A stretch of DNA of 64,000 nucleotides, taken from NCBI GenBank assembly GCA_003118195.1, contig BEXV01000863.1:88495-152494 (forward strand), written 5' to 3'. The position numbers and the translations under genes were made by a program. Shown piece by piece: positions 2,483-30,000 of this stretch. The notes beneath the pieces were generated by a model. It was not told the origin of the DNA and did not search any database. It saw only the letters and a program-made list of their open reading frames with translations. The DNA is from Hemicentrotus pulcherrimus. Lineage: Eukaryota; Echinodermata; Echinoidea; Camarodonta; Strongylocentrotidae. Within the stretch, counting starts at the first letter, position 1, and every line of letters starts with the position of its first letter.

Positions 2483-5400
2483 GTAAGCTTTGATCAGTCA
2501 TATCATTTGAGACATATCCCACCGCTGCCACCACACTAAGAAAGAGTGTTTTAATCACGTGATTACAATTCTTTGACCAACCATCTATTACAGTACTGGT
2601 GTTTATGCAGTTGACGTCGAATGCTACAAAAAGGCAGCAAATATTATGACATGGGAAAATTGTGATTGTTAACTATATATTTTTCAGAAAGCAACACTTT
2701 GGCTCTGTCTTCAAAAAAACAAATAAAGCATTATGAGCCACAAACAAAAACACTATAATTTTATGTTGTAGTTAATGTGCAAAATTATCACATTTAAATA
2801 GATTTATTCATTGATGTTGAGATTCTTGATATATAAGACGTTATAAGGAATATATAAGGAATATATTTTTATGTCTACCTTCAGATGGAGACTGATGAGA
2901 TGGCCAGACGCCGTGCTCGTCGCCTTGACAACAGCAGACTCCGCAAGTACCGTGACAAAAACGCACCAAAGGTTAGCAAATCTGACTCTCTTTTTTGCTT
3001 ACATTTATTTCACTGTGTTATTTGACACTAGATTAATTTATATTCTTCTGCACTGCTGGGAAAGAGTAAAAATTGAAACGATAGGCTCTTCATTTTTAAC
3101 GAATCATGGTATAAGTAAGCATATACTCATGTGTTATATATGGGAAGTATATTTCCTTATTTCAAAATATTAATATCTAATTGCAGATTTCTGCATCATT
3201 CAGATTTATTACAAGAACTTATATGACATTCTGTCATTCTGTCATATTCCCTATTTCATTTTCATTTGCTAACCAGGGAGCTGGACGAACTGTCAATGCC
3301 ATTGGACATCTGGCCCATGGTGGCGCCCTTCGTGAGATGCACAAGATGTACCGTGGCAAACCTCTCATGGAGAGGGAATGCTACATGGGTAAGTCAGGAG
3401 TTATTCATTACTTAACAAACTGTATATTCTTATTTTTGTAACAAAGATATGCTTATCCATCGACCACTGAATTCTCTCATTCTGCTTCATTTTATCCAAG
3501 AACCATTTACTTTTCGTAGATAATGGGTTAAATGTCAGATGAAAGTTAACAAAAATCGATTTTGAATATATTGTCTGGCTCATGTTGTCCATAAGGTATT
3601 GTAGATTTATTTGATTTATTTTAAAAGTACCCAAAGAAAATTAACTTCTTTTATTCTAATATGCTTTATCTTACTTAACGATGACGAATTACACTGACCG
3701 CTTCAATCGTCTATTAACATTAACGATATTTTCTTGGCATATTTTAGATGTCCGCGATGCAGCACCCAAGTTCATCAAACCCTTGGAGAACACCATGGCG
3801 ATCGAAGGTAACGCTGGTCGCTTTGAGTGTGAGGTCTCTGCCCTATCTGAACCTCTCATCACCTGGTTCCGAGGCAAGCAAGAACTCATCATCAGTATCA
3901 AGTACAAGATGCTCTACGATGACCACAAGTACACACTCATCGTTCAAGATTCTGAGTTCGATGATATTGACGAGTACACGTGCAAGGCAGTCAACTCTTA
4001 CGGACATGCTACCTCATCTGCCAGCCTAGATGTGCAACGTGAGTTATTTTATCATAAAGCATTCCACAGATTTCCGTTTGAGATTTTGAGTTTTAGTGTG
4101 CCTTGATAGCTCTTAATGGCTCACTATCAAACTGCAACCTTTTTGTTCCTGCAATTTCGATATTTTCTACTGTACGCTAATAAACATTAATCTGTATCAC
4201 TAATTGAATTTGAATTTTTAACAAAACGAAACTAAACATCATAAAATTATTATCAAATGCAATTAATTATCCTCATTTTTTCTGTTTCAATACAGTGCTT
4301 GACGCGAAAGAGCTAGACACAAGAGGAGAACGTAGAGGTCTTGACATGAAGAGAAAGAAGTAAGTCATTTCATTTCTGTTTTTCCGTCACAAATTATCTT
4401 ATTTTTGTCTCACTAGAACTAGAAAAGGAAACCATTATCGAAATACATTTTTAGATATATCTTTAAGTATTTGTAATATCTTATGCAAATATTCGAAAGA
4501 TAAGAGTAAGTTTTATAAGTTTCATAGATTTGTGTGAATTTGAAAGATGATCCAAGGATGACAAATGTTAAGTTAAGTCGAATTAAATCAAGAATGTTTC
4601 CATATCTTATGAAGATATGTGCAGGAAATGGTGTCCCCCTGTGCCATGTCCACACTATATCATCGTGAGGTAAAACGTGGCTCACCCAATCCGTCCTTAA
4701 CCGTTGTACATCGTATTCATTATTATTTCGTCGTATTAGGATTCCTCTGGGTGAACGAGCCAAGAAGCTCAGAAAAGCCCAGGCGGAGGCACCCAGCAGT
4801 GACAAGGCTCCACAGCTGATCAGACCACTTGAAGACCAGGAATGCGGCTTTAGCTTCATCATGCCTCTCTCTTTCCAAGGTGCGTTAACCCCCCCCCCCC
4901 TTTTCCCCCGTTGTAAGCAAACCAGAACTAGAAATTACTTCCAATGGGTATGTATCGTTTGCTCATACTTTACTCCAGATAGCAAAAATTATTTAAATTA
5001 TCGGTGACAGGAAAAAGAGGGGTCTACATAATCACTTTCAACCAATCTTGTTTATTCAAATAGATTTGAGTGTGCAGTACTAGAACAAATCAAAGCAAGT
5101 CTGTAATATAATATACTCTTGCTGAGATTAGCATGAAACACCCAGGATTTTTATCCAAATGGTTCCAAAGTATAAGAGCATATAATTTCTAATCTTTCAT
5201 GCAATTTGGAAGAACGTTCGCAATCGACAGAAATAATGTTATTTAAAAAGTATCTGAATTTTTATCTGAAAGAAAGGGATTACTTTATTTTTTAACCGTG
5301 ATATTCTGAATATGGCATTTAACAGCATAAAAATTGGGACTGATATTTACGCCACATGTTCATGTAGTCCCATATACATCTTTCTATGTACAGTGTTTAA

Positions 5401-8400
5401 TGGCCCACTGTTTCTTTCAACAGTTGCCGAAATCCCAGGTATGCCTGAACCCAAGGTTAAATGGTACCACGAGGACAGGCCACTGAAGCCTGGTGCTCAC
5501 TACCACTTCTACAAGGAAGATGGAGTACACACACTGGAAATTGACGGTACTACTGAGAAAGACAAGGGGCAGTACACTGCAGAGATTACCAACCAGTATG
5601 GAAGTATCGCAACCAAGTGCAGACTGGACGTCAATGGTAAGATTTGTTTTCCAATTTTATTTCAGGTAGTCTTAGCCTATCCTAGTGGTACTTGCAAGTT
5701 TCCATGTATAAGGTATAAAGTATAACGTTCAGGTATAGAAATTAAGTATAGTGTATATGTTTAGAAAAGGTGGACTCACGAAAGAAGATTTCTCCGTTTA
5801 CCTTTTTGTTGATTCTTGGAATGATTGTTTCTTCTTTTTTTTTGGCCAAATTGTTGGAGACTCCCTCTAAAAAAATTAAAGTTTTTTAACTTTCTGCTTT
5901 AAAAAAACAACTAACATGAACTATATAAAACGTGCTTCAATCATGATAAAACATCTAAACTTTCCTTCCCACACGTATTAATTTTGCAGAACTATTCTTG
6001 ACAAAGTTCAAGGACTACCGCAAACCTCACTTTGACCTCCACCTACGGGACATCTTCATTGTGGAAGGCAGTGCTGCTAGACTCGACTGCAAGGTGACCG
6101 GAGTACCTGAACCCAACATCAGATGGTATGTATCTAAACAGTTTTAATACCTTTACGGTTTCCTTTGTTTTACGATGGCCAAAGTTTTAATTTGATGAAG
6201 ATATATTCTTGTGAACTCTCGTCGATTGTCTGGCAAAATCTGGGATTATTAACAAACGGTTACAAGAACGGAGACAGAGATCTGGTGTTAATTGGTAAAT
6301 GAACGTGCAGAAGTATTAGTTTATGAGGTTCCAACATTTAGAAACGACTATATTATATGATGAATGATATTCTAGGCTATTCATGACTTAGATTATTTGT
6401 TGTATGCGTTTGACATATTTGATAATGAACTTCGTAGTTTAATTTTATATCAATATTTCAGCTCTTTTGGAGGTACAATTCTGTCAAAGTGATGTTTTGT
6501 TCACACACACAAAAAAAATTCAAAGCATATTAAGCTACAAGATAAGTAAATGCCGGAAAATGAAACTAGAGCGTTTTAAACTTTAGTGTTCGATCCACAA
6601 GACCATGACATCTCCCTTTGGTTATATCCTCCAGGTTCAAAGACCACAAGGAGATCTTTGATGGCCAGCACTACTCGATCGAGTTTGGAGAAGACGATGA
6701 AACCTGTAGCCTAATCATCCAAGAGGCTTTCCTCCAAGATGCAGGAACCTACACCTGTCTGGCCTCCAACCTCCTTGGAAGAATCTCATGCGATTCCTAC
6801 GTCAGGGTAGAACGTAAGTCCTCCATGATTCTCTTATCAGTTGTTCTTTTAAATTATGAATTCCATTGTGGAACTAATTGTACTAGGGATTGTGACTGAT
6901 TTCACAGGCCAGATAAGACTAAAGAAAACCAATACGTTTTGGGTTTTCCTTTTCACCAAATTTTATTCTGGATTATTTCTTACAATTTTTATGAAAAGTA
7001 ACAGTTGCATTCACAAATTCAGAAAAGTTTAGAGATTTATTTATCAAACAAAGAAAAAAGAGAAACAATAAATATATGTTAATTTTAAAAATAGGCAGGC
7101 AATAATTAAAATGCTGATGTTAAAAAATACGTTCCACACCATAATTGTATGTAATACAGTTTGCATGATATAGAAATGTAATACTGAGAATGAAATTGAC
7201 TTTAAAAAATTCATGTGAATGAGTGGATGTGTGTGTGTGTGTGTGTATGTGTTAAATATGTGTCAACATATTAACATCTTAAAATTGCACAGTATATCTA
7301 TAGAGAGATGTGTCATTTTCTTCCTTTCCCAACAGTTATTAAAACATAAAAAAAAGAAATGTGTCAGTGTGTCTTTATTTTCTATATATATTGAAAAATT
7401 GGCCGTGTGCTTCCTTTTGATGAAGTGATGGAAGGATTCATGAACAGTGTCCATTACTATTTTGTGACCATTATTGCCTTATACATGTACCTTCAAGAAC
7501 ATTCAGTTTTTCAGTTTGTAAGAAATTGCACTTGTAAAAACTGGGAAACGAAAGATAAGCGAGGACCAAACCTTAGGTTGAACTTTTGGATGAAGTCTAG
7601 CTATGAGAAGATTAAATGCAAATAAATTTGTCCTCAGGAGCAGGGACGATCTGAGAATTTCGATGCGACCTGTAATAGATCACAGGTCAACCAGCTCTTA
7701 AGCAAAATTATCGAGCAGCCCATGGGGAAAACCCCCAAACTCATTGGAGTGGAAGAATTATCATTATTTACTTGGAGAAGAGGGTGACGGACCGCACATT
7801 GTCATAAAGCGACAAGTGAGAACATAAGTGGATCTAAGCCACATCAAAGCATCACTGAAAATACATTGCACGTAGGAAACAAACACCACTAGGAAGCACC
7901 AAGGTGAGAGAAACATGGACTGGATCATATTACATGTGTATTGCAGTGAATGATAGAACTGACAATTTGACCTCAAAGCATCATTTCATGATGAAACGAT
8001 TGAAATGTCAAATCCACCAACATTCAGGGACGGAATGGAACTACAGAAAAGGAGGAAGAGAACCCTTTTTTTTTCATTTGAAAGTGTATACTTTCATTTG
8101 AGAGTACATGTGAACTGCTCTGCAGAAGAAAGCTACACGGAGGGCATTGTGATGAGGCTAATAAATTGATGAAACAGAAGACTCGAACGTAGGGTCCGTA
8201 ACCATCTAGTCCACTCGAAGTGGAAAGAGGACCGTTTGTCAAGAGGGAGATGCTTGAAATCTGTTCCAAAAGAACCTAAGAAGAATAGGGGTTACTCGAT
8301 GTTTTCAACAGAAGCCCTTGTGAAAATGGAACAACCAGTTTTAAGAAAGAACCTCAGGAATAACTGGATAATTTGATTAACATCACAGTTCCACCCTTGA

Positions 8401-11400
8401 TTGTGATTGCTAAAAAGAACTGAAAGTGCGTGTGTAATGCCAGGAACCGGTTAAAAACACATCCTTGCTGGATTTTAAAAACGAAATGGGAGTTCTGTTA
8501 ACTGAACACTAGAGAAATTAAATGATTGTACTTATGTCGAAAGAATTTCAGAAGTGCAATCTATGAGGAAAATAATTTGCATAAATGGAAAGAGCGAAAA
8601 TGTAGAATATAATGAGTACATTTTTTTTTTTGATGAACGAACGAACGAATGTATGAATGAATGAATGAATGATTAAAGGAGTGAGAGGAGCATAGAGGAG
8701 TAAGCAGGGAGCAGGTGAACGAGGCGTGAAAAACGAGAAGCCAGCAAACAAATAAATTAATGTCATATGCACTACCTAACATCGTTGCAATATGACTATG
8801 ATTATGGTTTTGCGTTGGACTTTGTTGACGTGATGCCTCTTTCGACAGATGTTTCTATTTATCTTGATAATTATAATGTGGTTGGGTGATATTTAGGAAT
8901 AGCAGTGGGATGTTCAAGGTTGGCATCCTATCCTACGCTTTCATTAACATGTCTGGAAATTAACCAAACATGATCATACATGTACGGTGTAGGAGCAAGC
9001 TCTCTGTAAACTTCCTTCTAAAAAGATAATTAGAAAATAGCTCTAGAGTGCTGTGGACGTTCAAGTTTTCATTCATAGACGTAAAATTAGACAAAAAGTT
9101 ACCTCATGTCTATTGGTGAGAGAAATCTTGTTTTAGTTTTAATTTGTTAATGTCTGTCTTTCATTAATGTGAGCAAAACATGTGGAGGTTTAAACTTTAA
9201 AGTGTGTATAGATTTGAAATAAACTTCCTGATATGAATGGTAAGAGCTGAAAATGACGATATTCAATTTAGGACACAATTCTCAAAAAAAAATAGTCTGT
9301 TCAGATCTTCGCCTGTCAGTGAATTAATTAAGGAATCAATCAATTGAAAATTACAAAACGCAGAAGTACATTAGGGTTGTGTAGTATGATGGACTTTAAA
9401 ATCGATCGAAAAGTCACTTTATATCTACTGAAGACAGTAAATTCATCCAATATAGGCCAGTAGAATTTAATTTTAAATTTGATTTGATCTTTACTTTACC
9501 TACCTATTACTTTATAGAATGCCAGTGTAGGAACTTAAAAAGTAGCTGATACAAATTTTAGAAAACAACTAGCTTTGAAATTATGACAAGCATGTTCATA
9601 TCTTCATCTGATAACACAGTGAAATGATTGCAGTTTGAATTTACCCCCCAATTTCAAAACCCTGAAAGATAGGTTTATGATTTAGTCAGTCAAAAGACGA
9701 CTTTAAAAGAGCAACTAGAACACAAGATGTCCATGGCGCCCAGTTTCCCGTTCGAGCACCGAGTATCAAGTATACAAAGGTCTCATGTTATTACGGAAAG
9801 CATAAACATAACGGAAGGCATCAACACTCTTTGACAGCCTTAAAGGGTAGATAACAAATGATTTATTGAACATATTTTATGTCAGGGGTTAAACTTTAGG
9901 TGATGAAATGTATCATATGATTGGTACTAATATGGGTAGACAATTAGATTCTTTATTTTGCGAACTATTAAATCGCTGATAACATGACCTTTAATTGGAT
10001 GCAGGCCAGGGATACATGTAACTTACAATGTAATAATAGATGAACTTCTATTGGACTTGATTTTGATTGTTCTAAAAATTCTTGTAGTTTTTGTCTTGAA
10101 TTAAACATAAACCGATTCGACATGAAATTGAGACGAATGTGAACGTTTTGTCAAACATCCCTCAACAAATTTAATGCAATTTTCCCAGAGACTCCTCAAT
10201 CCCTGTCAAATTAACAACATTCTGTACTCTATGCCTTTCAGAAAATTCTCAAATTCATACATTGTTTCTATATTTTTCATTTAAAGATATAAAAAATTGT
10301 CGGGTGATCACAATTTAAACTTTTGTAGGCTATCGAAAATCGACCACAGAGAGAACATGCATTTAACAGTTTTTGTATGCGTTAACTTAAAAGCAATGTG
10401 GTATAACATTTAAGTATGTTCTTAAGTATCCTCACGCGATATACTACACGTATGCCCTTTCCGTTTATCTTCATAATCCATTGCGTAAACACCAGCTAGG
10501 CATTTAACTGTTAGTTAACAATGCCGAGTAAGCACACTTGCCACATGCAAACGAAACAATCTGTCATAACATTTCAATATACCGTTCGGTGCTCTTTTAC
10601 TTACTCCTATTTCGATGCTCCAGCGGAGACACAAGCAGGTATGCCGCCATACCTGGACAGCGAAATGTCAATTGTCATGAGGTGATTTTTAGCTTCCCGC
10701 CAGCTGTAAAATGATGCGCGTAGAAAGGTTGGTCGTCTGTAACTCGTCAAGACTCATTCCTTATGTTACGAATGAGTGAATGAAGCTATTAAGACGTCAT
10801 CTAACGTCGGACAATTACTAGGAATAACTGTATTTGTATTAAGAAAGCTTAAAGGTATAGACCAGCTTTGGAAACGCTCCCCTTTCAAAAAAATGAAATG
10901 GAAGCTCTTATTACTAACCATGTGAAAGAATGTTTTGACTAATACGTGATGATACAAATTTTGCCGGGAAACCTCCTACTAATTTATATATTTGGTAAAT
11001 TATCACTATCAATCCGGCCTGGATAGATATCGCGAATGCACTTCAACATTAAATATTTGGGCATATATGTCTGTTTTTTGCGAATTTAGGCTGAAGTAAT
11101 GCCATCCAAATCTCTGAAGGCAATACTTAAACAATATTTAATGGATATTTTGCACCCACAGCACTTGAACCGAAATTGTACCACTACTGCCGTTATATAT
11201 CTTTAGGCTTAATAGCCTCTAGAGTTCGTCACAAATGTAGCTTTAATGGATTATTTCAACATTTTCCAATACTCGTGAGTATTTCTATTCAAAATGCATT
11301 GCCAAGCAAGGCGAATACATTTATGTTTTGATGATTATCTTCCTTTCTTGTGTTGAATCTTTCGCTGTGAAATATGTAATACAAAATAAACAGAATATTT

Positions 11401-14400
11401 GACCAATGTACCTTTAGAAACCGATAAAACACATGCCCGATAGGGAATTAGCTACCTTATTTAGCACAGATAATTAATTTCGGCAAGCGACCAAAGTACG
11501 TGAATGCGTTTTGTGTCCTTAGCTTTTAGGGGAGGCTCTCATGTTGTTAGATGAATCATAAATGTTGCATCGGGCCTATAATGACTTTGGGTCTTGTCCA
11601 ACAAAGTATGAACGGGGTTTGGGGATAGATGAGAAACGGAACCACTCAACATGGACCATAGCACCACTGGAGAAAATTAAGGGTTTGATGACAGATACAA
11701 TGTATGAGGAGTGGGCAGAAAGGTAAATCGTGATTTAGGGGTTAAATTACTTTAAAGAAGACAAATCATGAAAGGAAATGAAGACGTATAATAGGCAAAC
11801 AAAGCTACATATTTTGAGAGGCGCTATAGACACGCATTCTCTGTTATGGTTGAAATGATTGCATCACATCTTTATACGACCAAGCCCGAGTCGTAAATGA
11901 CCAGGCAGGTAGGTCTTTAAGATACACTTCTCAACTCGCCGTCACCCCTAAAGAGGAATGCAACTCTCCCGAGTTCGTTTCACTCTGTAATTAACACCAT
12001 CGCTATGTAGCTCTGGACTGCTTTTGAGATTAGGCAAGAGATGGTGAATATGAACTCAGTGTAAACCACATGATTACAACAGAGAGAGTAGAGTGGTGTA
12101 TTCATCATAGTATTGTTTATACCCCCTTTAATTACCGAACTTTTTTGTTGATCCTGTACATCTGTCAGATCCAATTTGAAGCGCTTGCAAAATCAAATTG
12201 TCTGGCGACCGCACTATGCTTGTCATGATGTTGAATCCAAGTAGGTTGATACGTGAAGGAACAGAAGGAATTGTTCATTCCGAAAGGGGCAGTGTGAAAG
12301 CAATTATAATTAAAAGCTCATTAAGCGAATATGCTTTATAATTGTTATCATAACATACATGATAAATGATTTTCACAGATTAATGTTCAGGTAGGCAAAG
12401 GAAGATTTGACATTCTTAAGCTTGTAAAGTGATACGTTTCAAGTGCCTTTCACTTAATATGCATTTACAAAAGTGATCCGTCTCAGATATAGGCCCATAA
12501 TTGAAAGTTTATCTTTTCCAAGTAAGAGTTTAATTACACATTTCTGCGTATATATGTTTCACGTTCGTTTAATACATGTACAATGGCTCAATCGTCCGTA
12601 GACCCTCAAGTCTCTAGAGGGTTACAAGTCCAGCACATCTGCTCTGATTTGCATTGTCAGAAAAGGTTAGCGATATGTTTGATTCTCTTTCGAGATTCTT
12701 CATTCAATTCCGAAATTAACTGGATGATTACATTAAATTTAAGCCAATCTGGAGAAAATCGAAGTTGGGAAGATCATGTTAATATCTGTTACGAAAAACA
12801 AATCCTTTACAAGTGTCTGCGTCATCCGACGCACAACATAAAACCAATTCAAGAGAGAAGACGAACCGTTAGGGTGGACCGTTTAATTGTTTACTTAGGC
12901 GTCTTGATGATAAGGTTTTATCAGTGTTGTGACAACTTCCTCTGAATACTCGTTTACCTTGTTGACTGATAAACACAGCACCAGCCCACGCTTAATATGT
13001 TTTAAGATGAGGGCATCTCGTCTCTATGCAAACAGATTGTAAGTGTATGATTAAAGGAGAGTGTGAATGGTGAGACGAGTAAGGTGTTTGTTGTCACTTA
13101 TTTTGTCAATCGTTAAGGACTGTGCCCGCGATAACCCTGCTTTTCAATAGCTTTAATGAATTTGGGCAATTTTTTATAACATGGATGCGTTCGATCGATG
13201 ATTGGAGTATATCCAAATGACACGGCTAGGAAAGAGCAGAATTGTGAGATGGTCTGTCGTAGTTTTCAGCTTAACAGAATTATCTGATTGGATCTTGTTT
13301 GAAGAAGATCAAGAAATCGTTTGATATTCCAATTTGATTAGAATCCAAGACGATGAACCCCAGTTGGAATCGTGAGATTTCCATCGACTGACCCACCGTG
13401 CGTGATGACAAAAGCCGTGTCTGGCGGCCTGGTTCGTTAGAAGAGGCTTGTAACCGGTAATGAACTCCACATCATACGTCGCTCAGGGTAGCTGTATCTG
13501 TATACAGCCGATGTGGTAGATCCATCGGCGGACTTTAACAGGCGCCAATTGGACGCACCAAATAAGGCAGCGTTTTGCTCTGGCTGGCCTCGCCGTGTCG
13601 ACCCTCGCCCCTGCTTTTACCCTGCGCTGTAGGCACGGCAGGACACCCCACGCTTAGGCATCTCGATTCTCGTGACATTTTCAAGTGAGCTAACGGCTGT
13701 TCGTGGGCTGCGCTGGATGGCTGGCCTGGCGAAGGGGGTGTCATTTGTCTACGCTGCCCCTCTTAGGTTTCAGATTTCACCACCCAACTGGCATGACTGC
13801 TATTTCATGTGATCAGCTTACATCGTTTTCTCGCTCGTAGTATGACGTGTGGTGTGAGCAAGTGAACTCACTTCTCTCGCTCTCTTTAGCCACCCGACCC
13901 CCGGCCCCGCGCTTTACTAATATCCAACACTACATTCATCGTTGACGATTGTACTTGGTTTGGAAAGAACCGCTACTGAGTGGCGGTTTTGCCTTTGCTA
14001 CCAACCCGTAGCGTGAGCGCGGCCGGGTCGGAGTGGAGGGAAATTATTAGGCCTGCATTGGAAGAATAAGCTAGCTGATTTTTAAAGATCATTGGAACAA
14101 TCGCGTCTTGTTAATCTTTTTAAAGGACTTTTTTAGGAATTGTTAAGGATATTTACGTAACTTGCAGTGGTGAAATAGTTAGGCATTGCTGTGCTACCCC
14201 TTCTGTGTTATCTTGGATTTTCCTGCTTTGGTTGTGTGATGAGTTTTTGGAATAGTACGAGGAATTTCATCCTTGTTTTTATATTGACCATCAAATTTTC
14301 AAGGATTTCAACATAGACCTTCAAAAATTATTATTTGAACGGAATCAGGATTTGATTCTCATATCTGATGTGTATTTAGCAGAGGTGCATTAAATGGGAT

Positions 14401-17400
14401 ATTATTTGATTTAGACTTTCATTGGTCTTTAAGACAGTATAGCTAAATATGGAAGACGGACATGTAAACGGCGAAGTCTTGGGCGAAGAGGAGATCGGAG
14501 AACTAAAGCTAGACGAGGATGTCTTAAATACATCTGTTGGAGGATACGATGACGAGCTTATGATTCGAGAGGATGGAGATTATCCATCGGATAAGCGAAG
14601 TGGAGGGGGTAACTCCGATATCCTCACCCCAGCCGGTAGCGTCTCCTCGGGTGAAGGGTTAGCGACGATGTCTTCAGCGGCAAGAGCTAGCAGCATCCCT
14701 TTTGAGCGCGAGATGTCGATTGATGACGAGATTACCATGGAAACAACCGATCCAATCACAGAGGAGGATCCTCCAAGCATCGCGAGTGAGATTGAGTCTT
14801 TCCCGCGCGACGCCCATGACGGAGAAGAAGAAGATAGTCAGAGACTGCAGCATCGATACCGAGGTACTACAGGCACCGGGGTGAACACCTCGATGGATAT
14901 GCGATCAGCAGCATCAGCATCAAGGAGTTCTTATCGGCCTAGCAGTCCCACGGTCAAGGACATGATTAATTCATATCTTTACCGTGATCGAGACACCGAC
15001 CCCTACGATCTCCTGCTCGACGTCCCCGACATCGAGGTCGATACGGACAGCGAGGAGTATGAATTCGATTACGAGCCGGTGTCCGATAGTGACAGAGGGG
15101 TCAAGGACCTCCTCACTGCCCTCGAGGATCAAATTCGATGGAAATCGGATCGTAATGATAGAAAAGCAAAAGGAACATTTGATGAGCCTAGAAACACCCT
15201 TATTAGTCGGTATGATCCTCAGTATAAAGCACCGCTCGAGACCTATGAACCTCGTTCCGTACCTAGAAGTTTTCCTACCACTAGCTCTGGTGCCTTAGAT
15301 AGAAGCAAGCGACGTTCTAGTCTAGACGCCACCACTCGCGAAATATCAAATCGTTACCTAGCACCACTCAACAAGAAATTAAGCACATCCTACGATAGTC
15401 TACCTCGATATGTTCCCTCGAGTACTACCAGTTCCTCATCGTCCGGTTACTCGTCTCTAGGTCGTTATGGGAGCGTTGATTCGCTGGCGCCATCGAGATC
15501 GTATCGCTCTCGCAGCGAAGAGCCTGCGTCGTCGTATCTCTCTAAACCGTCGTATTCTAGCGGATTGGGATACCGATCGCACAGCAGTAGTGATGTATCC
15601 CGAATCACGCCCTCGTATCGCGCGAGCTACGAGGATACCTATTCTTACGACAACGACGATGACAGCGAAAGTAGGAGCGAAAGCGACGATCCTTATTTCT
15701 CTCCCCTGGCACCTCACAGGGCTTATCAAGCTCACCGTGAGGGAAAGAGCGTTAAAGGACCTTACGCGAGACACATGGGCAGATTTAGTTCGACCATCAC
15801 ATCGACGTCAACACCACCACGATCACCAGCGACGTCGAGAAAGAACGAAGTCCCCATCGATGAACGGCTTCGTCAGATCCGAGAGAACTATCGTAAAAAT
15901 CACAAACTTGACTATCAGCGTAATCAGCCATATTCTACTTCTTCCTATGCAGGCCTTGGGGTGGATAGCGAGGGAGGATCCGCACTTTCAATGTAAGTAA
16001 AATAGAAAATATTTGATTTCATTTTTTTTAACTTTCAATTTGTATTTTTGATGTGTCGTTAATGTATAATTATGCATGTGTGTGAACTCTTATAATGTAC
16101 CGGATTTTGCATTAAATTCAGTGCCAGATCAAAAGATTGTTGGATGGATTACAGAATAATAGAATAAGTCTTGCATGCAACATACTTTGAACAATTCAAT
16201 ACGCTAATTAGTGAATATACAGTTGTACTGTCAGTGCGTGTTTGCAAGGTTTTGACATCTTAAAATTAATGCGATAGTCACCTGTAACATTTCATAGATG
16301 ACTTATTAAAGATAAAATTACTGAGGTTGCTGTGTTGACACGTTCCAAATTGCAATATACAATTACATGGAATTAATTGACTCATATACTTATGTAATTC
16401 ATATCTCTAAAATCAAAATACCCCTTTGTAACAAATTCCATGCAATGTCTGAGATTTTCATGTTTATTTTTTGTGAAATTATCGATTCATGAGCAGTTGC
16501 TGTTAAAGTTTTTGTGTTTGTGTGTTCCAGTTTGCATGTAAAGCAGTTTTATAAAAGAAAGTCTTACAGGTAAGTAATCATGGAAATACATTATTAAAAC
16601 TATGTAGTCAAAGTAATTGTAGAGAACTTCCTCAATAGATAACTTTCAACAACATAAAAATTGCATGCCTGTCATATTGTACGTACGTAACATGAATTGT
16701 AGATATTTCAATAACAATCAGAAAAATAGATGTAGACCTACACTAGTTATTGATGAAGCGAATGAATATCAACAAAGTTTTAACGAATATAGTCAAGAAA
16801 TTTCATTCCACTGGAGAATTGCAAGGGTAGGAGAGCCAATAAAAGATAAGGATTCGGATGTGACAAGAATGAGATTAACAGTAATTTTGTAAAGTAAATA
16901 AACAAGGAAGTAATGAAACTGAGAGAACTAGAGAAGAGGAGCAAAAGTTATAAGGTTAACTGATGTTTCTCTTTAAATCGAGGAGATACATCAATATAAT
17001 CCTTGGTAAAGCAGAAGGCAGCGGGCTGTCTATGTAATGGATCCTCGCTATGTAGTGTTTATGTCTCAGCCCTCGCGACATTCCTATCATACCTATCAGA
17101 TCAAGGGTCACCATGCAAGTTCGTTCCCTCATCTTCATCATCATCCATCTCCTCACTCCCATCACATCCCTCCTCCTCCTCCGTATCCCTTTACCCTTCC
17201 CCTCACCCTCAACCTCAACATTCCATGTCTGTCCATCTCTGTATTAAGCCCAACATCATTCTATATCATGGCGAACGATCGACTCCCTCCTGTGTGCCTT
17301 TGTATTGTAAGAGACTAATGTTTAACATGTTCATTTCCACCGTCCTGTGATCCCCATCTCTTCATCACTCTCATCACACCCCCTTCTCCTCCGCATCATT

Positions 17401-18053
17401 TTACTCTTCTCGTCACCCTTTACATTCCATGTCTGTCCCATTTCTTTGCTAAGCCGAACGTCTCATGATAGCGAACAATAGACTCCCTCCTATATGTCAT
17501 CTTACTGTTAATGATTAACGTTAACATTTTCATTTTCCCCCGCCTTGTGGTATGAACCCTATATCTGTCTGTCTCCCAACCCGTATCTGTCTTTCTAAAA
17601 CTTTACTCAGTCGATTGCCTGTATCGTCGACCAAATAAGAAATGGTTTCATTGTTTCCTTCGGTGAGAGATCGTAGCAACAATATACCTACTTTGATCAT
17701 CCTCTCCCTCTGAATCCTGTTTTTTCATTCCATCTTTCCATCCTCAGTTCTTTCATCATCCCTAACTCTTCTCCTTCTTCACATGTTCTTTATAAACACA
17801 TCCCTGAATCGATAGCTTATCATGACGCTGTAACATTAATGTCACTACCCGGGGATCTTAAAGTGATCTGATGGGTATGTGTTATCTCCTAAATACCAAC
17901 ACATGTCCTATCTATAAATATCTTCATCGTCATCGCAGGCATCAGTTAACTGTGCTCGTCTTCAGCCTCAGACACACTTATTTCTTTTCACCAATGCACT
18001 TTGTAAAATATAAAGTTCGCAATAACAAAATAGTATCAACAACATTAGGTATT

Positions 18054-18085
<32 letters not shown>

Positions 18086-21000
18086 AACGACGGCGCAGCC
18101 GACGACGATGATAATGATAATATAACAAGGGTATGAAATAACCATCATCGTCTCATGATATTGATAGAACTAACAATTATTACCATATTAGATAGTATTG
18201 CTATATAAAAGTAAAATAACAGTCGTGAATCATACCGTTTTAGTTTCCTGACCCCTGTATATCTGATGGCATTATTCGTCGTTCTCCTTTGACAATTGCG
18301 AAGAATAATATCATATTCGGGCACCTCGAAATTTTTATTAACGATTGTGTTTGACAAAGATTCAAACAATTGTTAGTCCTTTTAAACCACTATAAGCGAT
18401 CGTGTTTTCTTCCCATATAAAATGAACGCTCAGAAACGTACAGTAATTAGGAAGTGCATGCAAAGTCTTCGATATTAGATAGAATAACGGACGATTTGGG
18501 GGATATTTTTTCTTACTCAAATCTTGAAAAAATGGTATGCATATTGGCCCAACATTCGTTATTTGTGTTCTATAGTGATTCACCATTCATGACAACCTAC
18601 CAACCCTACCCATCTTTCATTAGGTGGGGCCGGTGTGCAATGATTATACACACAGTAAGGTATTTCAAGAATGGCAAGGTTGATGTACAGAGACAGATTC
18701 CCCCAACGAATTCGTGGAATTCGATCAAAACATGTGGCACCAACGTAAATCAGTGTCATCCTCATCAAAATGCTTTCCATTCTGTTCGAGACCATATTCC
18801 TAATGCATGGCCACTACAGAATTTGCCTGTAAATTTTCGATGCAGTATACACTTTAGGGTGAATAGGCAGTAGGTTCATATATTATGCTGTTTAGAATTG
18901 GTTTGCTTTAACAAGAATCTAGGTTATGTCACATTCTGAAATAGGTAATTGGTCAGATCACGTGTAATTCCTTTGAAACATTCTTTTTGTCATTTTATAT
19001 TATCATAGAAAGTAGGATCAGAGATCTCAAAACGATCTCAAAACAAAATCATATAATTTAATATTCTATTGAATCATTTAATTAGATATTTCATCGATTG
19101 CAAACTTAATAAGGATGATAATTTTGAAGAAAAAAAGGTTTGTCATGTTGATATTGATATCTCCATTGTGATAATAAAGATGATAATTTTTAAGAAAAAA
19201 AGTTTGTCATCTTAGAAAAATGCTAAACCTTAAAGTGATCGACTCAGTAAACTATATTACGTAGGAACATTGACGCTGTCCAAGAAGTTTTCGGAAAAAT
19301 ATGGTCTTGAAGACATGTATGCACGAGGTATTATGGTGATCCAAATGCAAAGCAAATAATTCCATTGTACATGCTAAAGTTCTCGATAAGATGTTATTGC
19401 ACATAAAAGAAAGGTTTTTAAAAAAATATTTTTAGATTCATAACACAGAATATGATAACCATCCCACTCTTATGTTGTCATCTCGGTATGTGAGAGGCGA
19501 TACGATATAGTTAGTCGAAAGGTCAAACGTGTACTTTGAAATTTTAACTAAGTCTAAGTAGGGTGTTTCCAGATGAATAATTCGTAATATTTTTTTGTCA
19601 AGTTAACACAACTACGCGCAACAGAATTTTAATTGCTTTTTCCTCAAGTAAACATGCCAATACTAAGAAGTCTTTTATTTTTAACTGCCACCAATCGAGA
19701 TGGGGCCTCAACTCTGTGTAACTCGAGTATTGTTGGCAAATGCCTTTGCAGGCCAACTTCACGTAAATGCAACAGACATCTAGACCAGTCATATGAAGAA
19801 GAAAAAAACCTTTTTGATAAATATCTTTTACCAATAATGAAACCATACCCCCACATCTTGTATTGAGAGTAATGTGGATAAAGTTTGTAAGCCGAAGACG
19901 ACACTTTAAATATACTTTTAAATCCCACGTCTTTCAAGTTTACTTGCATCTGTTACTCATGTCCTTTAAGTCGCGCGGCTGTTGAGGTAAATGAATGTGA
20001 AATCGATAGGGTGTGGATTTATGAACAAGTCGGTGGCTCTCGAGCTATTAATAAAATGCGTCTTCTCTGGTGAGACACATTCAGAAATCCTCTCCCACTC
20101 CACTTACACAAACAAGAGCTGAAGACGTACCGGAATCATGTCTATCTTCAGTATCTACGGTAGATATGGACTTAGGAGACGGTATGACAGGTAGTCAATC
20201 ATAGCAGTTATTCTTGTTTTTATTGGAAATAACTTTGTTTTTCTTTCTTAATGAATATCGGATTATGTAGCAGTGGGGAGGTAAGCTTAAGTTTGAAGAT
20301 ATATTTTCGAATCATTCTTCCACAACACGCGTGAACAATCCGGAATTCGAAATCTGTATCAAAAGTTCCTCGCATGTTTTTTTTTAAACCTTTTAAATGT
20401 TTTACCTTCTAAATTGTATACCATTGTCAAAGCGTATTGAAGTCCTAATTGTCCTTGTAGTGTATATTTGTATCTAGGTGTTTCCAATTCAGTATTTGTA
20501 AACTGCTTTGCCAACGTACTCACTGAAATAATAAATAAATTCTATATCCATTTTGTGATACCCTTGTATTCGGATGATGAGTACCCTTTTTTTTTGTTTT
20601 TTGAAAGCTTTATTAGTTATTGGTTTGAAGTTAGATAACTGGACGATCGCGTAAACTTTTGGATATATTCCCTCTTAGACAAATGGGAGGATTTATAATC
20701 TATCGAAAATGAAATTCTCCTTATGGTCTATTTTATATCCCTGTCTATTTTTCTTTTAGGAACATTTGGTATATGAGTAGTTGAACCGTTACTTAAAAAC
20801 ATTACGTACACATTAATTGACAATAACGGCACCATCGGGTCATAGTATTCACAGATAGATAGCTAATTACCAAGGTAAGGACATTTCAAGTACATGGTGA
20901 TTTATACGCTCTTGTATTCTAGCCAACCGCCCCTATTCCCGGGCCCCATGCCCCCTGAAGACAAGAACATAGCTTGGGTATGCGACCCTGTCATCTCATA

Positions 21001-24000
21001 GATTCCAAGCAATAATTATCAGCCTGGCCCGTGCCCGTGTCATTAGAACCAAAACGTCTTTCTATCTTGTCTCCTCCATCCCTGCACCACCCGATCTGTC
21101 TCTGTCTCTCAAGTCCAACACCTCCCCTCGTACCCCATCGAGCGAGAAAGATGAATCATGAGGATGGTATGCCATGTCTTTCATGGTTAGGTTCTTTCAC
21201 CTGACATCCAGGCATTTACAGATAGTCCAATTCTAGTACATGAGAAAAGAAAAGTTGTGATGAATATTTATGATATTCGTTGGTTTCTATAAAATCAGTG
21301 ATTTACTGAAAAATAAGCCAATTTCTTTTAAACACCCTTTGATCTTTTGTGTTAATCGTTAATGATAGCATAGATTGCTTGATTAAATCCATTCTTATCC
21401 GAACTCCTAGCTCTTCCTCCACACTCGGTCTGTAAACAAATCAGTGAAACCGGAATGATCATTCTAGATACGTTCCCCATCCAGATTTTAGCAAATACAT
21501 TCCTAAAAATGAAGTACGCATTTGTGTCTGTCAAATTAAGCATTTTATGCTACGGTCACAAAGGTTCGTACGAACGATAATTTCGTACGAATCTCCCAGT
21601 TTTTCCGTTGTCTTCCCGAATTTCCAATGTCTGAAAATCGTTCGTACGGCGTTCGTAGCAGTTCGGAATGGCATTTGTGACCGAGGCTTTAATGGCGGAT
21701 TCTATAAAGTTACGATGATAGCAGAAGCAAAAGTTGTAAATGGATCATTTCAGACAATGTATCGATGTAAGACACGTCAGCTCTGATTCAGAGCAACTAA
21801 ACGAGATTAAAAACATTGCCGAGAAAATTTCGAATACATCCCGCATTACGAAGTCCCTATTTTTAACGGGAAGAAACACGTAATGTATTGTACGTACGCC
21901 GACCTTGTTTGTACATAGGAATGCCGAGATGGGACGAGATATTTCATTCGGCGGTCGACGAACAGGCAAGATAAGATGTCTGAATAAGATTCCGATGTAA
22001 ACTGGAAGCCCCGAGGGGTTATTGCAAGTGAAATCGCCCTAAATCTGCGGTATCAAAACTTGCTTCAGATCTCTGATTTGTCGGAAGGCAGTTTGATTTG
22101 AATTCCTTCTTCGTAATTCCAACTATGACCCACGGTAGGCAGGAAAAGGAAAGAGATCTAAAGGGGTCTGACAAGTAAAAGAGTGGCTATGGCCGAATCA
22201 CGTAACTGCGATCGACATAAATAACTTCCTTTAGAACATTACGGACTTCAATTTGATTCTCTGGTGGGTCTTTTTATCAATATTACCAAGAACCAAAGTC
22301 ATTTCCCTTTTTTCCCCGTCGGGCGGAAATACCGATATTTAGAGGCCGAGACGCAATGGGATTAATCAAAAAGTAGGCGCTCCTCTCCTCCCTTGATCTC
22401 CCGTATGGAAAGGGATTGTACATGTCCCATTGCCCTCACCAGGCGGGTTAAATTTAGCTGCTGGCATGTCAAGTATTCGCAACTGATGAACAGACCTAGA
22501 CCAGAGCGGGAATTCACTCATACATTAAGCGGATACACTATAGTGTAGAGATCCTATAATATAATGGAACTTGTCTCTTGTTTAAGACCGGATTAACATT
22601 GTTTTGGAAAGGGATATGGCATATGGGTTTAAAGTATTAATATGTAGTCTAGTTAAGTATAAAAGTCGGGTTTATTCTTATGAAGTGGGTTATAGTATTT
22701 TGTAAGAAATGGAATTAATTTAATATAATATTATGATATAGAATTGGTTATTTGTACTTCACCTTTTCTGAATTTTAGATGGACACCAAAAGGCTTTTAT
22801 CATTGATTAGCGCCTATCAAATAACGAAGTTATTCAAAAATCTATATTCAAGGGAGTGTAAAAAGTAACCATCTAGTAAAAAACGTACCCATAAAATTGC
22901 ATAATTATCGAGTTGTTTAAGTTTATGTAAACAAAGCTATATTATAGATCAGTCCATCACAAAGGTTAGCATCACACATTGAAATTAAATCTAGAGACTC
23001 AATTCTAATGGGAATAAATCTCCACCATGCACCTGTTCTGCATCAACACCTGATATATCAATGCATTTAACGTTGGCATCACACATTTGACCATTCACTC
23101 ACTCGGGGTTTAACCTTGTAAAAAAAGAGCCCTCCAACGATTGATGTAAACACAGACCTGTCCTCCCAGCTCGAGAGGCCTGTCTGAACAAATCTAATTT
23201 GATTGTAATTAAGGGAGGTCAAAAGCTCCCCGCCGACTGGAGGGCAATCTTAATGAGAACTTTTATGGTCCCAATACCGCGTTAGTGACATAACCACGTG
23301 TGTTTAAGACCTCTCTCAAAGGTCATTATAATCGGGCTTGAGCTTTGGAGACAAACGATAAAAACACGATTAGTCAAAACTAATTACGTAGCGTAAAACC
23401 ATATTAGAACCTCTCAAGAGGATGATTCAACTAATCTTGGTTAACTCTGTAGGATGGAATGCTAAATGTTCAGGATGATACAGTAAGATAATAATGTTTC
23501 AAACTCTTGATGTGCATGCTTTATCGATATTGTCTTAGCTTGCATGTTTCTCTTTTCTGTTTAGTTTCAAATTGTGATGTTGTTATTCCTCCTTTGAACC
23601 AACTATGCATGCTTCTAGATATTTTATTTCAGTAGCTATTTTTTTTAATTTCATAAAAGTCTTACATTGTTCGATTTTTACACATCTAAAAGTTCTTTAA
23701 GATGCTTCGTAAAAATGTTTATTTCTTCTTGTTTAATTTGACTTGTTCATTTTTTTATCTAAATTGACATGTCTTAAATCATGTTCAGTGGCAAAGGAGA
23801 TTTGGATTAACCACGAAAAAGGTGGCATGCGGTCATTTAATTATAAATTGATTACATTAGTCATACAACTGTTTTCACATCTACATTAGATAAACACGCA
23901 TATTTTTCAAGCAACGTGATCTAAATCGCCATATTCTTTTAAACTCTGTTCCTTGATGCAGGGAGTCTAGCGAGGACGAGCGTATTGTATCCCGAGCTAG

Positions 24001-27000
24001 GATCGAACCGGTCCGAAGCAGCAACCGTTTGCAACTACCTTTCTTCAGTCTCCCGCTACGCCGAAAGACCGTGTACGACGGCGAACCGGCGCGTATCAGC
24101 TGCAACGTGCAAGGAACACCGAAGCCGAAGATTTCGTGGAGCAAGAACGGCGTACCGATCTACGATGGGACGTTCTACAATATCACCTACCGATGGGGCG
24201 TGGCCATGGTGGAGATCCGTAACGCAAGCAAGGGTGACACCGGTACATTCAGGTGCACTGCCACAAATGCGGAGGGTGAAGCGACCTCCGCGTGCGAGCT
24301 GGTCGTTGAACAGAGTAAGTCCGACGGTCAATATACACACATTTCGATAAAAATGGTAACAATAATAAACAAGCGATGTTTTGAGAGAGTTAACTTTCGA
24401 AAATTTTAATGTATTTTAACAAGGACAGAGGAAATGATCCGTATTGATTTCACAAAAATAAATATAACTTTTATTCTTCTCTCTTTTTTATATTATCTAC
24501 TGTCTTCTTGATTAAATAAACTGTGCATCCTTGGTTCGAAACGCTTAAGCGCGATTCGCATCTCTTCAAGTTTTATGCCGTGGTTCCGACGGTCCTATTC
24601 ACGTGCCCCATTATCTATAAAGATTTACAAATATAAGACTAGTGTTGAATCATCGTTGACGTGTAGAAATCGACAAATTTATTATATTATTTGTTTCTTT
24701 TTTAGGAGTACCACGTAGTGAAACGGAGGACTACATCCGTCCGTCTTTCGCCAAGCCGCTGCGCAGAATCCGTGCCAAGGAGGGTAGGAAGGTCCGGCTT
24801 GAGATCCAAGTCATGGGATGGCCGGAACCAAAGATCACCTGGTAGGCCATGGAAAAAAAAAATTAAACTATCATTTTGACGTTTACGGACCTATAAGGAA
24901 AGCCATTTGTTTCACATTCTCTCGTCCATTGCTCTGGTTACCAAAGATATATCATTTTATTACAGAACAAATGATTTTATTTTAAAACATCCTTAACTGA
25001 AATTGTCTCGCTCATAACTAATTTTGTTAATGTGGTTGATGATGTTAATTTCTTTTTGTCTTCGTGAATATCATCTTGAAGAGATGCTTTGAAAAACTAT
25101 GAACTGAATAGATTTTGCAATGAGGGATGTATTAATATTCATTTAGATGGAGACATATCCCTTCCTTAGAAAAGTACAAAATCGCTTCCCAAAGAAGGTA
25201 CTAGAATGCAGCCGTTGAATTCAAACAGTCGCAATTTCATGTTCGTTTTTGTTATAATCATTAGTGTTACTGTGTTACGTTCAATATGTTTCCTGTCAAA
25301 TATGTTTATATATTTTGGGTTTTTTCTCGTAAAAGGTTGAAGGACAACGTCGAGGTCGTGCACTCAGATCACATGTACGTCGAGAAGTTCCCTAACGGAC
25401 TTCAATCCCTGGTCATCTACCGTGTCGTACCAACAGACGCGGGTCGCTACCAAGCGATCGCTTCGTCGCCAGCTGGCAAAGCCACATGCTCTGCCGATGT
25501 CGACGTGATTCCAGGTGAATAATTGTTTTTTGTTTTTCTTGTTGATAGTGGGGAAACTGAATTTAATGAAAAAAAACAATGATCATGCAATGCGTCATAA
25601 TATGGCGTAGTTCTGAAATATTTTTCGGGATAGATGTGTACGTTCTCGTTAAAAGCTGCCTGCATGTTGACGTTACTTCATGTTTTTATTCCATTTCTCT
25701 CTCCAGCTAGGTGGAATGTAAGTTTTTGATGAATGTGGACGAATGAGAATGGAGATGTAGATACAATGGGGTCATTTTTGTTTTTACATGAGTTTTGTAT
25801 TTTATAGTCCTACCCATCAAACATTTACCCCCTCCTTTTCCAACTCTCAAACATTCGGACATTGATATTGAAAGCATAAAATCGATAATTGTGTTCGTCC
25901 TTACATTCAAATGACAGTTCAAAAGCAAAAGTAGTTTATCTATAATCACTTTGCATTGATTAATATCCACCAGGGGAAGCGTTACCAGATCGCGGTGGAG
26001 ATGTTGGGCGTGGGCGTCATAAGACTCGCAAGGCACCACGATCACCTCGCAGTTACCTCGATGTTGCCACCGAGAGTACCCGCCCTCATCAAAAGCGTTC
26101 AAAGCACCGACGCGACCCATCAAGCCTTTCACCAACATACACATACGAATCAAAGCGCACACAACGCAAGGATTATTACACACCAAGAACCGAAGTTCTT
26201 GCGCCGTCACGCAGCCGTTCCTTCAGTCCGACGTCACCAACGGGACTATCGCCTTCATCGCGCTATTCTCCATCCCGCCCGTATACGCCATCAACCTACC
26301 GCCCGTCGTCACCGATGGGAACGTATAGGCCTTCTTCCCCGACGTATCGTTCACCGTCACCGGCTTACCGCCCCACATCGCCGACATACAGGCCGTCATC
26401 ACCATACCACAGCTACGCAACATCAAAACGTCTTAGCAGCCGACAAGGTGTAGAAGACTCGGGTGTAGACTTTTATCAGGCAAGGTCTGACAGACCTTCG
26501 CAATATGCTGAAATGAAGGAATCTCGGAGAACGACGCGAGACTCTGGACCCGGGTATTTAGATGTAACGCGTACATCGGCGACATTCACGCGATCTGGTG
26601 GCAGACCCCTGCCAAAGTTGACCTCTTACACCACATGGTATGATAACATGCGGGCCAACCGCGATCGACCATCGACGCCAACAACGACTGACCGCACACG
26701 ATACACTGAGCCACACCGCCCAGCATACACTGAGCCGTACCGCCCAGTGGTGCGAGATCGACCCGTAGCGGGGCCCACGAGGATACCGCGTCGCGTCTAC
26801 CGCAGCGAAGAGGAGGACTATTACTCAGCACGCCAGGAGCCAAGTTCCTACAAACTGGATGACAGGTACAGCCGAGAGTATGGCGGTTACGAGGTAAGCG
26901 ATGATGAGTTTACTATGCGAACATACGCACCCAGCGCTTCGGGAGTCGCAGTCGACGACGAGGAACCAGAGTATGCGGCACCAGAAGAACCAGAACAGGC

Positions 27001-30000
27001 CGGACCTCCGTCCTTTGAAAAGAAGTTCCAGGACATGTCTATCCGTGATGGAGAAAGGGTAGTCCTGGAGGTAGTGATTACCGGTAAGTTTGATGTTGTG
27101 TTTTTTTTTTTAAAGAAAATCTGAAAATCTACCATCTAAAATGCTAATAGTGTTCTTGACTCGTGAAATAAGAATTGGATTTTTTTTTCCTTCTCTTTAT
27201 GTCGGATAATTGGTTTGTATGTTTTGAGCGAAAGATGACAATGTCCATTACAGTGACTTAACAGAGAAGATATTTCTCATGACACTTAAATAAAAGAATG
27301 CTGAAGGAAAAATCACAATATCTGTATCCGGTCACTGAAACAGAAAACAATCGAGCATCTTAACGAATTTTCAATTTTGAGACAAATTTGAATAAAATCT
27401 CATTCTACTAGATACGGTTATCAAATTAAACTCATAATCCACTTTTTTTCTTTAAACAGGCTCTCGTCCAATGGACGTCGGCTGGCTCCGCAATGGACAG
27501 GACATCGTTGACTGCAAGGAGTTCCGCTACGTGAGCCGTGGTAACATCTACCAGCTGGAGATTGCTGAAATCTTCCCCGAGGACAGCGGCAAGTACACTT
27601 GCGAAGCCCTGAATGACCATGGAGAAGCCGAGTGCAGCGCCATGCTTACCGTCAATGGTGAGTGCAAACAGTTTTTGGCGTAGCACCAATTGCGACATGA
27701 AAAATTATTGACGCACTCTTAGGTTTTATCACCGCATCCAAATCTTTTGCTGAGGGAATCTATCATACTTACGTCCTTTATATTCATGGATGATTATACT
27801 TTTCCATTCTCGTTCCTTCTTTGTAAACTTGAGTTTATAGTACAATTCAAGCGCAAATTGTTTAACATAAAGGTTACAATTCTTGCATTTTTGTCCTATT
27901 CCTCTTATTTCCAAGAACATAAACAGCAATTGTAGTGTTTAGACACTAAATTATCAACTTAAACGACAATAACTAACTTCATTCTAATTTTGCAGAAGAG
28001 CCAAGCGTGAGCATCAGTATCTCACAGAGCATGGATGTTAGTCTGAGTACAGACATGCCATGCACAGCAACCATGGACGAGGATCACATCCCACCAGAAT
28101 TCTTTGAAGAACCTCAGTCACAGATGGTAGAAGAAGGCAGCACTGCAGTCTTCACGTGTGATGTAGATGGTGACCCAGTGCCCTCTCGTAAGGAATATTG
28201 ACTTGTTTAAGATCTGTCTGTCTTTGCCTTCTTTTCTCTTTTCCATCTTCTCCCTTCCTCTTCTCAGCTTGCGTAGGGCGAATGCATTGTTTTACTGTTT
28301 GCACATTTTGGTTATTCGTTTCACAGAATTCAGCGGAATTTTCACACCAGTAATTCCGATGTCACGGATATATATCCCACCGTTGCCACTATGGCAATGA
28401 AGGGTAATTCGCACACCAATCCTTCAATTGTATGAGTTCATATCCTACCGCTGCCACTACGCCAATAAATTATGATTTACACACTGATCATTTCAATGAT
28501 ATGAGTTCCTATCCCACCGCTGCCACTATGCCAATGGAGGGTAATTCCCATATCAATTAAATCCAATATCTCTTCTAATAAACAAGTTAATTTGTTTTTG
28601 CAGTGACGTGGTCAAAGGATGGTCGTCCATTTACAGACGGTGGTCGTATCTCGATCCGAAGTGACAAGTTCACGCACACCTTAGAGATCCAGAATGCACG
28701 CTCAGCCGACGCTGGTGTTTACGCCTGCACGGCCAGGAACAGCGAAGGCGAAGTCGTTTGTGAGTTCACGCTCGATATCCTGCCAACCGGTGCTGATGAT
28801 AAGGGAATCACCGCCTCCGATGTCAGGTAAGTTTTATTTTTCCATCTTAATTTTGTTTCAATTGATCAAGGTGGATCAGGAGGAAAAAGATCAGTTTCAG
28901 TTTCTACTGAATAAATTATTCTCGCAAAAGAACCGCATCATCGGCCCTTATTTTTTTCTATTAACTACTCTCTCATTTACTAGAAAAAATATTAATTTTG
29001 AATTTAATGACATTACTGTTAAATGTTGGTGGTTTAGCCAAATCAATTGTTGTAGTAAGGATTTTTCACTGCCCATAATTGAGCTGTACTTATGTATATA
29101 GTTTTCCTGGATAGTTTTAACATGGTAGTCATGTTTTATGAATAGAAATAATCAAGAATTTCAAGCACACTGTTATATTTTGTGTACCTGCTTATTCGAA
29201 TTCTTGTGCAATCTTTAAGAAGCAATATTTTCTACTAAATTTATATATGACTGTATATCTTCTTTAACGTGAAAGCCTTGTCAACTCAACCGATGTTATA
29301 TTTTCATACCCTATATTTTAATAATAAATGCAAAAAAAAAAAACATGAAATATTTATTGATCATTTGTTTTGGAACTGCATCAACATTATAAGCCGACAC
29401 TTTAGATATGTATTATGAAGTATACACGCGATGTCATATATCACTTGATTTTGAAACAATGCACATATTTATACATGTCTAGAGAAATTAGTTAGTATTT
29501 CACACTTTCACACTTTTTGCACAACGCACAGTAGTGCTGCAGCACGCGACTCTGCCGAGTCTGCCAAGTCATCCTCTGCACCCTCCGCCGAACCATCGGC
29601 ATCAACAGCACCCCAGGGCTCCGCTGGCAAGGGACCTAAAGACGGGTTAGAACTTTCTTCTCTGTAGATAGTATTCACTCACGTTTTTTTAATTATTTTA
29701 ACAAGACAACATTTTACAATTATTTTTGTTTATCGTTAAGGCATCTACTTTTTATTAAATATCATAATCTGGAATAAGATATGGGATTTATTTAAGAATA
29801 TAATTTTCTTCAACAGAACCTAGATGTAACAATTACCAAGAGGGAAGTAAGTGGTCGCAAAATGTAAATTATCACAAAGTTCAAATACAACGAAAACTGC
29901 TATTCCGTCATAGGAAAGAGTATGGTTTTTGGTGGTTTAAAGGTTACCTCTGAAACAGAAGTTTGAAAACCAGAAGAATCTTAATATGCTCCGGGAAACA

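Follow-up and report, generated by a model that had tools for sequence, protein, structure and literature searches.

Organization of the locus

We analyzed a stretch of 64 000 nucleotides from the sea urchin Hemicentrotus pulcherrimus (contig BEXV01000863.1, positions 88 495 to 152 494; hereafter the window, with coordinates counted from its first letter), which carries on its plus strand what reads as the 3′ part of a giant gene of the Ig/Fn3 muscle-kinase family, ending at 34445. The 27 exons that we rebuilt in the window from splice sites and phase form two blocks, both on this strand: a kinase block (2-6813; kinase, tail, Ig1, linker, Ig2 and Ig3, with 630 codons within the window) and a downstream block (14449-34445). 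With Pfam models the kinase block showed a kinase plus three stretches of I-set type, and the downstream block showed five such stretches and one Fn3. An earlier prediction made on the same DNA (the original prediction) had proposed that the downstream block also yields a protein of its own, without the kinase, starting in the intron between the blocks.

The kinase domain, its 5′ part lying outside the window, is encoded by exons 2-129, 437-578, 1060-1259, 1914-2066 and 2437-2482, whose phases fit; PF00069 matched from profile position 43 onward, and the motifs HLDLKPEN, DFGL and APE are present. Two exons of the post-kinase tail (2885-2971 and 3277-3388) were placed by phase and by alignment to a Saccoglossus protein, P0123. 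Then come Ig1 (3748-4038; hidden Markov model, HMM, and Ig tree), a linker with Ig2 (4296-4359, 4740-4879 and 5424-5636) and Ig3 (5990-6125 and 6635-6813), the last two placed by splice sites, phase and Ig tree; Ig3 ends with a phase-1 donor.

The first coding exon of the downstream block, S1 (14449-15992), was delineated by its open reading frame (ORF) and by a match to a protein of Diadema antillarum, P0001. It lies, as had been predicted, in the intron after the kinase and Ig1-Ig3, with its own ATG and an in-frame TAG (14440-14442) nine bases upstream. From ATG to donor there are 515 codons, the last one split by the intron; the ORF from stop to stop has 517. Further exons encode Ig4 (S2, 23962-24314; I-set, 77% identity to P0001), Ig5 (24706-24841 and 25336-25514; splice sites, phase and protein alignment), a basic linker with YRPSSP repeats followed by the start of Ig6 (25974-27083; splice sites, phase and composition), the remainder of Ig6 (27460-27657), Ig7 (27996-28187 and 28604-28826), a linker with Ig8 (29532-29645, 30105-30189 and 30493-30739; splice sites, phase and Ig tree) and Fn3 (31180-31304 and 31866-32046; PF00041). 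The last exon (34270-34445) encodes a Pro/Lys tail ending in RMAKFSK, as in P0001, with the stop codon at 34443-34445 and AATAAA at 34512.

The phase relations given in the original prediction were reproduced in full. Donor 15992, a phase-2 site, matches acceptor 23962, which donor 6813, being phase 1, does not fit; acceptor 24706 is phase 1 and is compatible with both 6813 and 24314; the spliced kinase-free Ig/Fn3 ORF has 1620 codons and ends at the stop mentioned above. In tblastn searches with 359 proteins (E 1e-4) no further Ig, Fn3 or kinase exons were found in 6814-14448 and 15993-23961, apart from low-identity alignments extending out of the 23962 exon; nor did these proteins point to a terminal coding exon between the blocks, a search that a lineage-specific exon would escape.

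Family of the kinase and identity of the Ig domains

The best solved relative of the kinase is Aplysia twitchin (PDB 1kob). BLAST listed protostome twitchins first (58%), with MYLK kinases at 53% or less. In a tree of 41 kinase domains the kinase formed a clade (98/94*) with a 'twitchin-like' protein of Diadema setosum (P0149; 78-82% identity) and with P0123, which is named titin-like; this clade holds no MYLK kinase of the tree, and the kinase belongs to none of the MYLK or obscurin/SPEG groups. By these comparisons the upstream kinase is probably of twitchin type.

Some other proteins in the set, hemichordate P0121 and brittle star P0354, MLCK-like by name, and hemichordate P0274, named unc-89-like, carry a second kinase, of MLCK type, towards the N-terminus; P0274 has a third. 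In P0121 and P0274 both kinases fall into one group (98/94*), as though the duplication had happened inside the gene.

We picked 19 protostome twitchins and examined the tails of 17; in 16 of them the kinase is followed, on the same polypeptide, by five Igs, designated c1-c5, of which the c4-c5 tandem is the last part. Per-position profiles (HMMs) of c1-c5 assigned Ig1 to c1 (77.6 bits versus 52.0 for the next profile), Ig6 to c4 (104.6 versus 68.5) and Ig7 to c5 (73.7 versus 64.2). A first tree of 95 Igs, built without MYLK Igs, agrees with these three assignments; Ig1, in the position of the first post-kinase Ig of twitchins, falls in the c1 clade with 99/95*. Ig2 groups with Ig2 of Saccoglossus (100/97*). 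Ig4 is twitchin-like as well (c2, 77.1 bits; c3, 75.0 bits). Ig3, on a long branch, joins the MYLK post-kinase Igs of telokin type (97*), where the telokin Ig, P0006_1846, also falls. Besides Ig6 and Ig7, tblastn detected no other Igs of c4 or c5 type in the window.

The predicted kinase-free protein and its counterpart in Diadema antillarum

The separate start of the kinase-free protein has a counterpart in another sea urchin. P0001, a predicted protein of D. antillarum (Echinoidea) with 1690 amino acids, shows 63% identity over 100% of the kinase-free query; the alignment runs from end to end, including the start and both the 14449 and the 23962 exons, which sets the kinase-free ORF apart from a chance reading frame. 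P0001 has a similar start, a head of 526 residues, Ig4-Ig8, Fn3 and the RMAKFSK tail. It represents a cluster of four sequences, called 'uncharacterized protein' in one source and 'isoform X2' in another, and is the only whole-query match among the 120 of 359 proteins listed. Since P0001 matches the whole length including the start, the kinase-free product is, by sequence, conserved; since P0001 is itself a prediction, what is conserved is the coding sequence and the exon order rather than a capped transcript.

The 13 Pfam families that match the kinase-free form are all Ig or Fn3 models, with none reported for the head. This 515-residue head, encoded by S1, is acidic (pI 4.8; pI, isoelectric point) and rich in Ser and Tyr (Ser 17%); the head of the Diadema protein is likewise acidic. 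S1 had no match in NCBIfam, a bacterial and archaeal library, and Rfam gave none at its gathering threshold. The linker encoded by 25974-27083 is basic (pI 9.8), as is its Diadema equivalent, which also has YRPSSP repeats.

In the H. pulcherrimus linker the TYRPSSP repeat occurs three times. The Diadema version shows some enrichment of S/T-P sites, 22 of 1000 shuffles having as many, which is not clear in H. pulcherrimus (77 of 1000). The linker might be phosphorylated.

An acceptor within the 14449 exon and an in-frame bridge

With splice-site profiles trained on 25 acceptors and 26 donors of this gene, we observed a strong acceptor at 15953, inside the 14449 exon; its position weight matrix (PWM) score is 9.9 versus a median of 7.9 for the real sites, each left out in turn. 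This acceptor is phase 1, like donor 6813, and the 40 bases from it to 15992 give the phase 2 that 23962 needs. The route 6813-15953..15992-23962 keeps an open frame from the kinase to the tail with all eight Igs, 1750 codons from the window start including the stop. An acceptor inside a first exon and in phase with an upstream donor is what a hybrid first-internal exon would present, and by its sequence 15953 is such a site; we propose 15953-15992 as a 40-nt internal exon of the kinase transcript, formed by an alternative 3′ splice site within S1.

When all acceptor-donor pairs in the intron were searched for exons of 15-2000 nt, 15953-15992 alone gave an in-frame bridge whose acceptor and donor both scored no lower than the gene's medians; with the limit set to the lower quartile, three bridges were obtained. 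The best internal acceptor in the 14 other coding exons longer than 150 nt scored 6.1. Among 2000 synonymous-codon shuffles of the exon, a site as good or better appeared in phase 1 in 78 and in any phase in 96; within the last 150 nt a phase-1 site appeared in 13, and at the identical place in 6. These statistics are moderate evidence for a bridge exon.

Other lines were tried and dropped. Of the acceptors immediately upstream of the ATG considered for entry from the kinase, 14438 has the needed phase 1, meets the TAG at once and scores 3.9; 14443 scores -0.3. Conservation of the 15953-15992 codons, considered as proof of the exon, did not rise above background.

In the original prediction the kinase form joined 6813 to 24706 without Ig4, leaving exons 14449 and 23962 exclusive to the kinase-free form. 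The phase fit on which this join rested stands, and 24706 is a strong acceptor (10.1, leave-one-out); what does not stand is the join as the only in-frame continuation, as 15953 fits too. With the 40-nt exon carrying 6813 in frame into 23962, the kinase form could retain Ig4. A single gene spliced from 6813 to 24706 appears improbable to us: it would give up one Ig in spite of an Ig-keeping in-frame route with strong sites, and Ig4, with its twitchin-like profile scores, is not obviously special to the short form.

Candidate internal promoter and leader

A weak candidate for an internal promoter and 5′ leader occupies 13314-14448 on the plus strand, and was picked by GC content, CpG, a CArG-type site and an acceptor at 14383. 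In 13314-13813 GC is 0.53 and the observed/expected (o/e) ratio of CpG is about 0.9-1.2, that is, not depleted; CpG is likewise not depleted at 10314-10813 (o/e 1.23). One perfect CArG-type site, CCAAATAAGG, was found at 13558. In 200 shuffles as many motifs were seen in 29 cases for CArG (n = 1), 10 for a looser CArG (n = 3), 38 for MEF2 (n = 2), 41 for TATA (n = 3) and 68 for E-box (n = 10); CAGSTG had no occurrence. Given the strong acceptor at 14383, upstream of the ATG, the leader itself may be spliced, and the start could then lie further upstream.

A proposed single gene with two products

Given an in-frame bridge with strong sites, we favour a single gene in which the 14449 exon would be both first and internal. 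Also in favour are the end-to-end match of the short form with P0001, the clade in which the kinase falls, the c1 assignment of Ig1, the common strand of the two blocks with no recognised terminal coding exon between them, and the location in the downstream block of the Igs that best fit c4 and c5, a tandem standing after the kinase in protostome twitchins. That the locus is one twitchin-type gene with two products, a kinase plus Ig/Fn3 form and a kinase-free tail form, we consider somewhat better than an even bet (probability roughly 0.55); that the kinase block and the downstream block belong to one gene at all is, on the same sequence evidence, probable. The long transcript would contain the kinase, Ig1-Ig3, most likely the 40-nt exon 15953-15992, Ig4-Ig8, Fn3 and the tail. 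The second transcript would start from an internal promoter within the 17-kb intron, at a point perhaps near 13-14.4 kb. Leaving acceptor 15953 unused, it would fuse intron sequence and the small internal exon into one exon. Translation from 14449 would give 1620 residues: the 515-residue acidic head, disordered by composition, joined to Ig4-Ig8-Fn3 and lacking the kinase. Such a protein could be a thick-filament or M-region Ig/Fn3 binder that occupies the tail sites of the giant protein without bringing a kinase.

Several observations weigh against this reading. Outside its own clade, the rows nearest to the kinase by path are MYLK kinases and not protostome twitchins, and the tree did not settle its union with the latter. 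The splice-site profiles were trained on exon calls made in this same analysis, and conservation of the final 14 residues of S1 is unremarkable, 177 of 502 windows doing as well. The promoter motifs are not significant versus shuffles. No echinoderm protein (890-8750 aa) joining kinase and tail was seen among the matches listed, 120 out of 359, 120 out of 424 and 120 out of 614, and no full-length echinoderm twitchin among the 120 listed out of 614. The 'twitchin-like' P0149 of D. setosum breaks off within the kinase and closes with unrelated sequence. The name 'uncharacterized protein' given to P0001 suggests, under what we take to be NCBI naming practice, a gene model without a kinase. Finally, with MYLK Igs added to the tree, Ig6, Ig7 and Ig8 were equally near to c4/c5 and to MYLK Igs, and approximately unbiased (AU) tests rejected neither pairing of Ig6 and Ig7 (p-AU 0.455-0.613).

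Because the Diadema models seen do not join kinase and tail, two neighbouring genes are possible, into which an ancestral twitchin gene would have split: the one with the kinase would end after Ig3 and before 13 kb, and the tail would be independent with its own promoter. This would agree with the phase mismatch between 6813 and 23962, with the stop at 6897-6899 met by read-through past donor 6813, with the 18 occurrences of AATAAA/ATTAAA in 6814-14448, and with the annotation of the D. antillarum tail as 'uncharacterized protein' and of the D. setosum twitchin-like protein as a separate model. However, P0149 is visibly broken, which makes the Diadema models poor witnesses on gene joining; poly(A) signals arise by chance in AT-rich introns; no terminal exon resembling any fetched protein was detected by tblastn; and the strong in-frame bridge is present, with acceptor 24706 fitting 6813 too. 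We regard fission as unlikely, with a chance worth keeping in view.

The AU tests and the equal nearness of Ig6-Ig8 to MYLK place the downstream block only in the c4-c5/MYLK class: Ig6 is of c4/MYLK class (c4 HMM, a MYLK Ig being equally near) and Ig7 of c5/MYLK class (HMM, Ig tree and AU tests). As proof of twitchin descent the pair held in the MYLK-less tree and weakened once MYLK Igs entered; among the pairings put to the AU tests, that of Ig7 with c5 was already a branch, at 84, not starred. The block could be a MYLK-derived unit that lost its kinase and came by chance to lie behind a twitchin gene, since Ig6-Ig7-Ig8 match in order the Igs before the second kinase of the hemichordate and brittle-star MYLK-like proteins (P0274: 93, 89 and 83 bits), Ig8 groups with those Igs at 88, not starred, and the AU test permits it. 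Yet the twitchin's own c4-c5 tandem would then have been lost, none having been detected elsewhere in the window by tblastn, and the same-strand order of kinase, c1, ..., c4-like and c5-like is the twitchin order. We consider this origin very doubtful; judged by position, though not by the trees, descent from twitchin is simpler.

Under the favoured reading of one gene with two products, a further step may be proposed more tentatively, at slightly less than even odds: that sea urchins evolved, apart from vertebrate telokin, an internal-promoter, kinase-free tail protein of a twitchin-type gene, whose first exon arose when the 40-nt internal exon was lengthened at its 5′ side into a disordered head of 515 codons. 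One exon would then be internal in the transcript with the kinase and first in that of the tail alone. If so, the separation of a giant muscle kinase from the domains of its tail would have arisen at least twice, in different members of the gene family, and the molecular route, a micro-exon growing into a first coding exon, would be clear. The role of a tail free of the kinase in muscle could then be studied in sea urchins.

Comparison with known systems

The locus resembles twitchin/projectin in Ig1, which is c1, in its kinase, as far as the deuterostome twitchin-like clade goes, and, by profile scores, in a downstream Ig tandem of c4-c5 type, to which MYLK Igs are equally near; it differs in having eight post-kinase Igs instead of five, an Fn3 and a Pro/Lys tail, and, within the part after the kinase, a large exon that carries a start codon of its own. 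Twitchins have Fn3-Fn3-Ig super-repeats ahead of the kinase, a part that would here lie upstream of the window, which begins inside the kinase. Among the matches listed from the open-licence PMC literature, none described a product of the twitchin tail free of the kinase.

Vertebrate telokin is described, in an excerpt of PMC9343278, as a 17 kDa C-terminal part of MYLK made from an internal promoter. As far as that excerpt goes, the two cases share a C-terminal, kinase-free product of a gene of the giant-kinase family with a start downstream of the kinase exons. The differences are that the kinase here lies outside the MYLK groups, that the telokin-type Ig is Ig3 of the kinase block and is absent from the short form, and that the product has 1620 residues with its own 515-residue head. 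Because of the first two, the parallel drawn in the original prediction holds for arrangement and not for descent; the likeness to telokin, if real, would be convergent.

The kinases of UNC-89, the C. elegans obscurin, are located at the C-terminus. According to a passage of PMC12812942, this gene has three promoters and at least 16 polypeptides; multi-promoter giant-kinase genes are thus already known in that source, UNC-89 being likewise a giant Ig/Fn3/kinase gene, though of another family. Exons used at a transcript end in one case and internally in another are reported to be frequent in human, with about 35% of alternative first exons in EMATS (exon-mediated activation of transcription starts) structures, as stated in a portion of PMC10256964. 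The 14449 exon would resemble these hybrid first-internal exons in being both terminal and internal across transcripts; in contrast to them it is proposed from sequence only, and its first-exon form would add about 501 coding codons to the 40-nt exon.

Neighbouring features in the window

Exons of a CFAP65 homologue were observed on the minus strand at 46293-47160 and 52110-53118 (Pfam CFAP65 Ig-like domains; PDB 9ijj), making it the tail-to-tail neighbour of the twitchin-type gene. An assembly gap at about 40421-41155 holds, by eye, nearly all of the window's 709 N. Between the CFAP65 exons, on the opposite (plus) strand, lies a retrotransposon-like ORF of 829 codons (49028-51514), in which zinc-knuckle-like motifs were recognised by eye; it also matches reverse transcriptase weakly, at an E of 8.7e-4 that falls below the Pfam cut-off.

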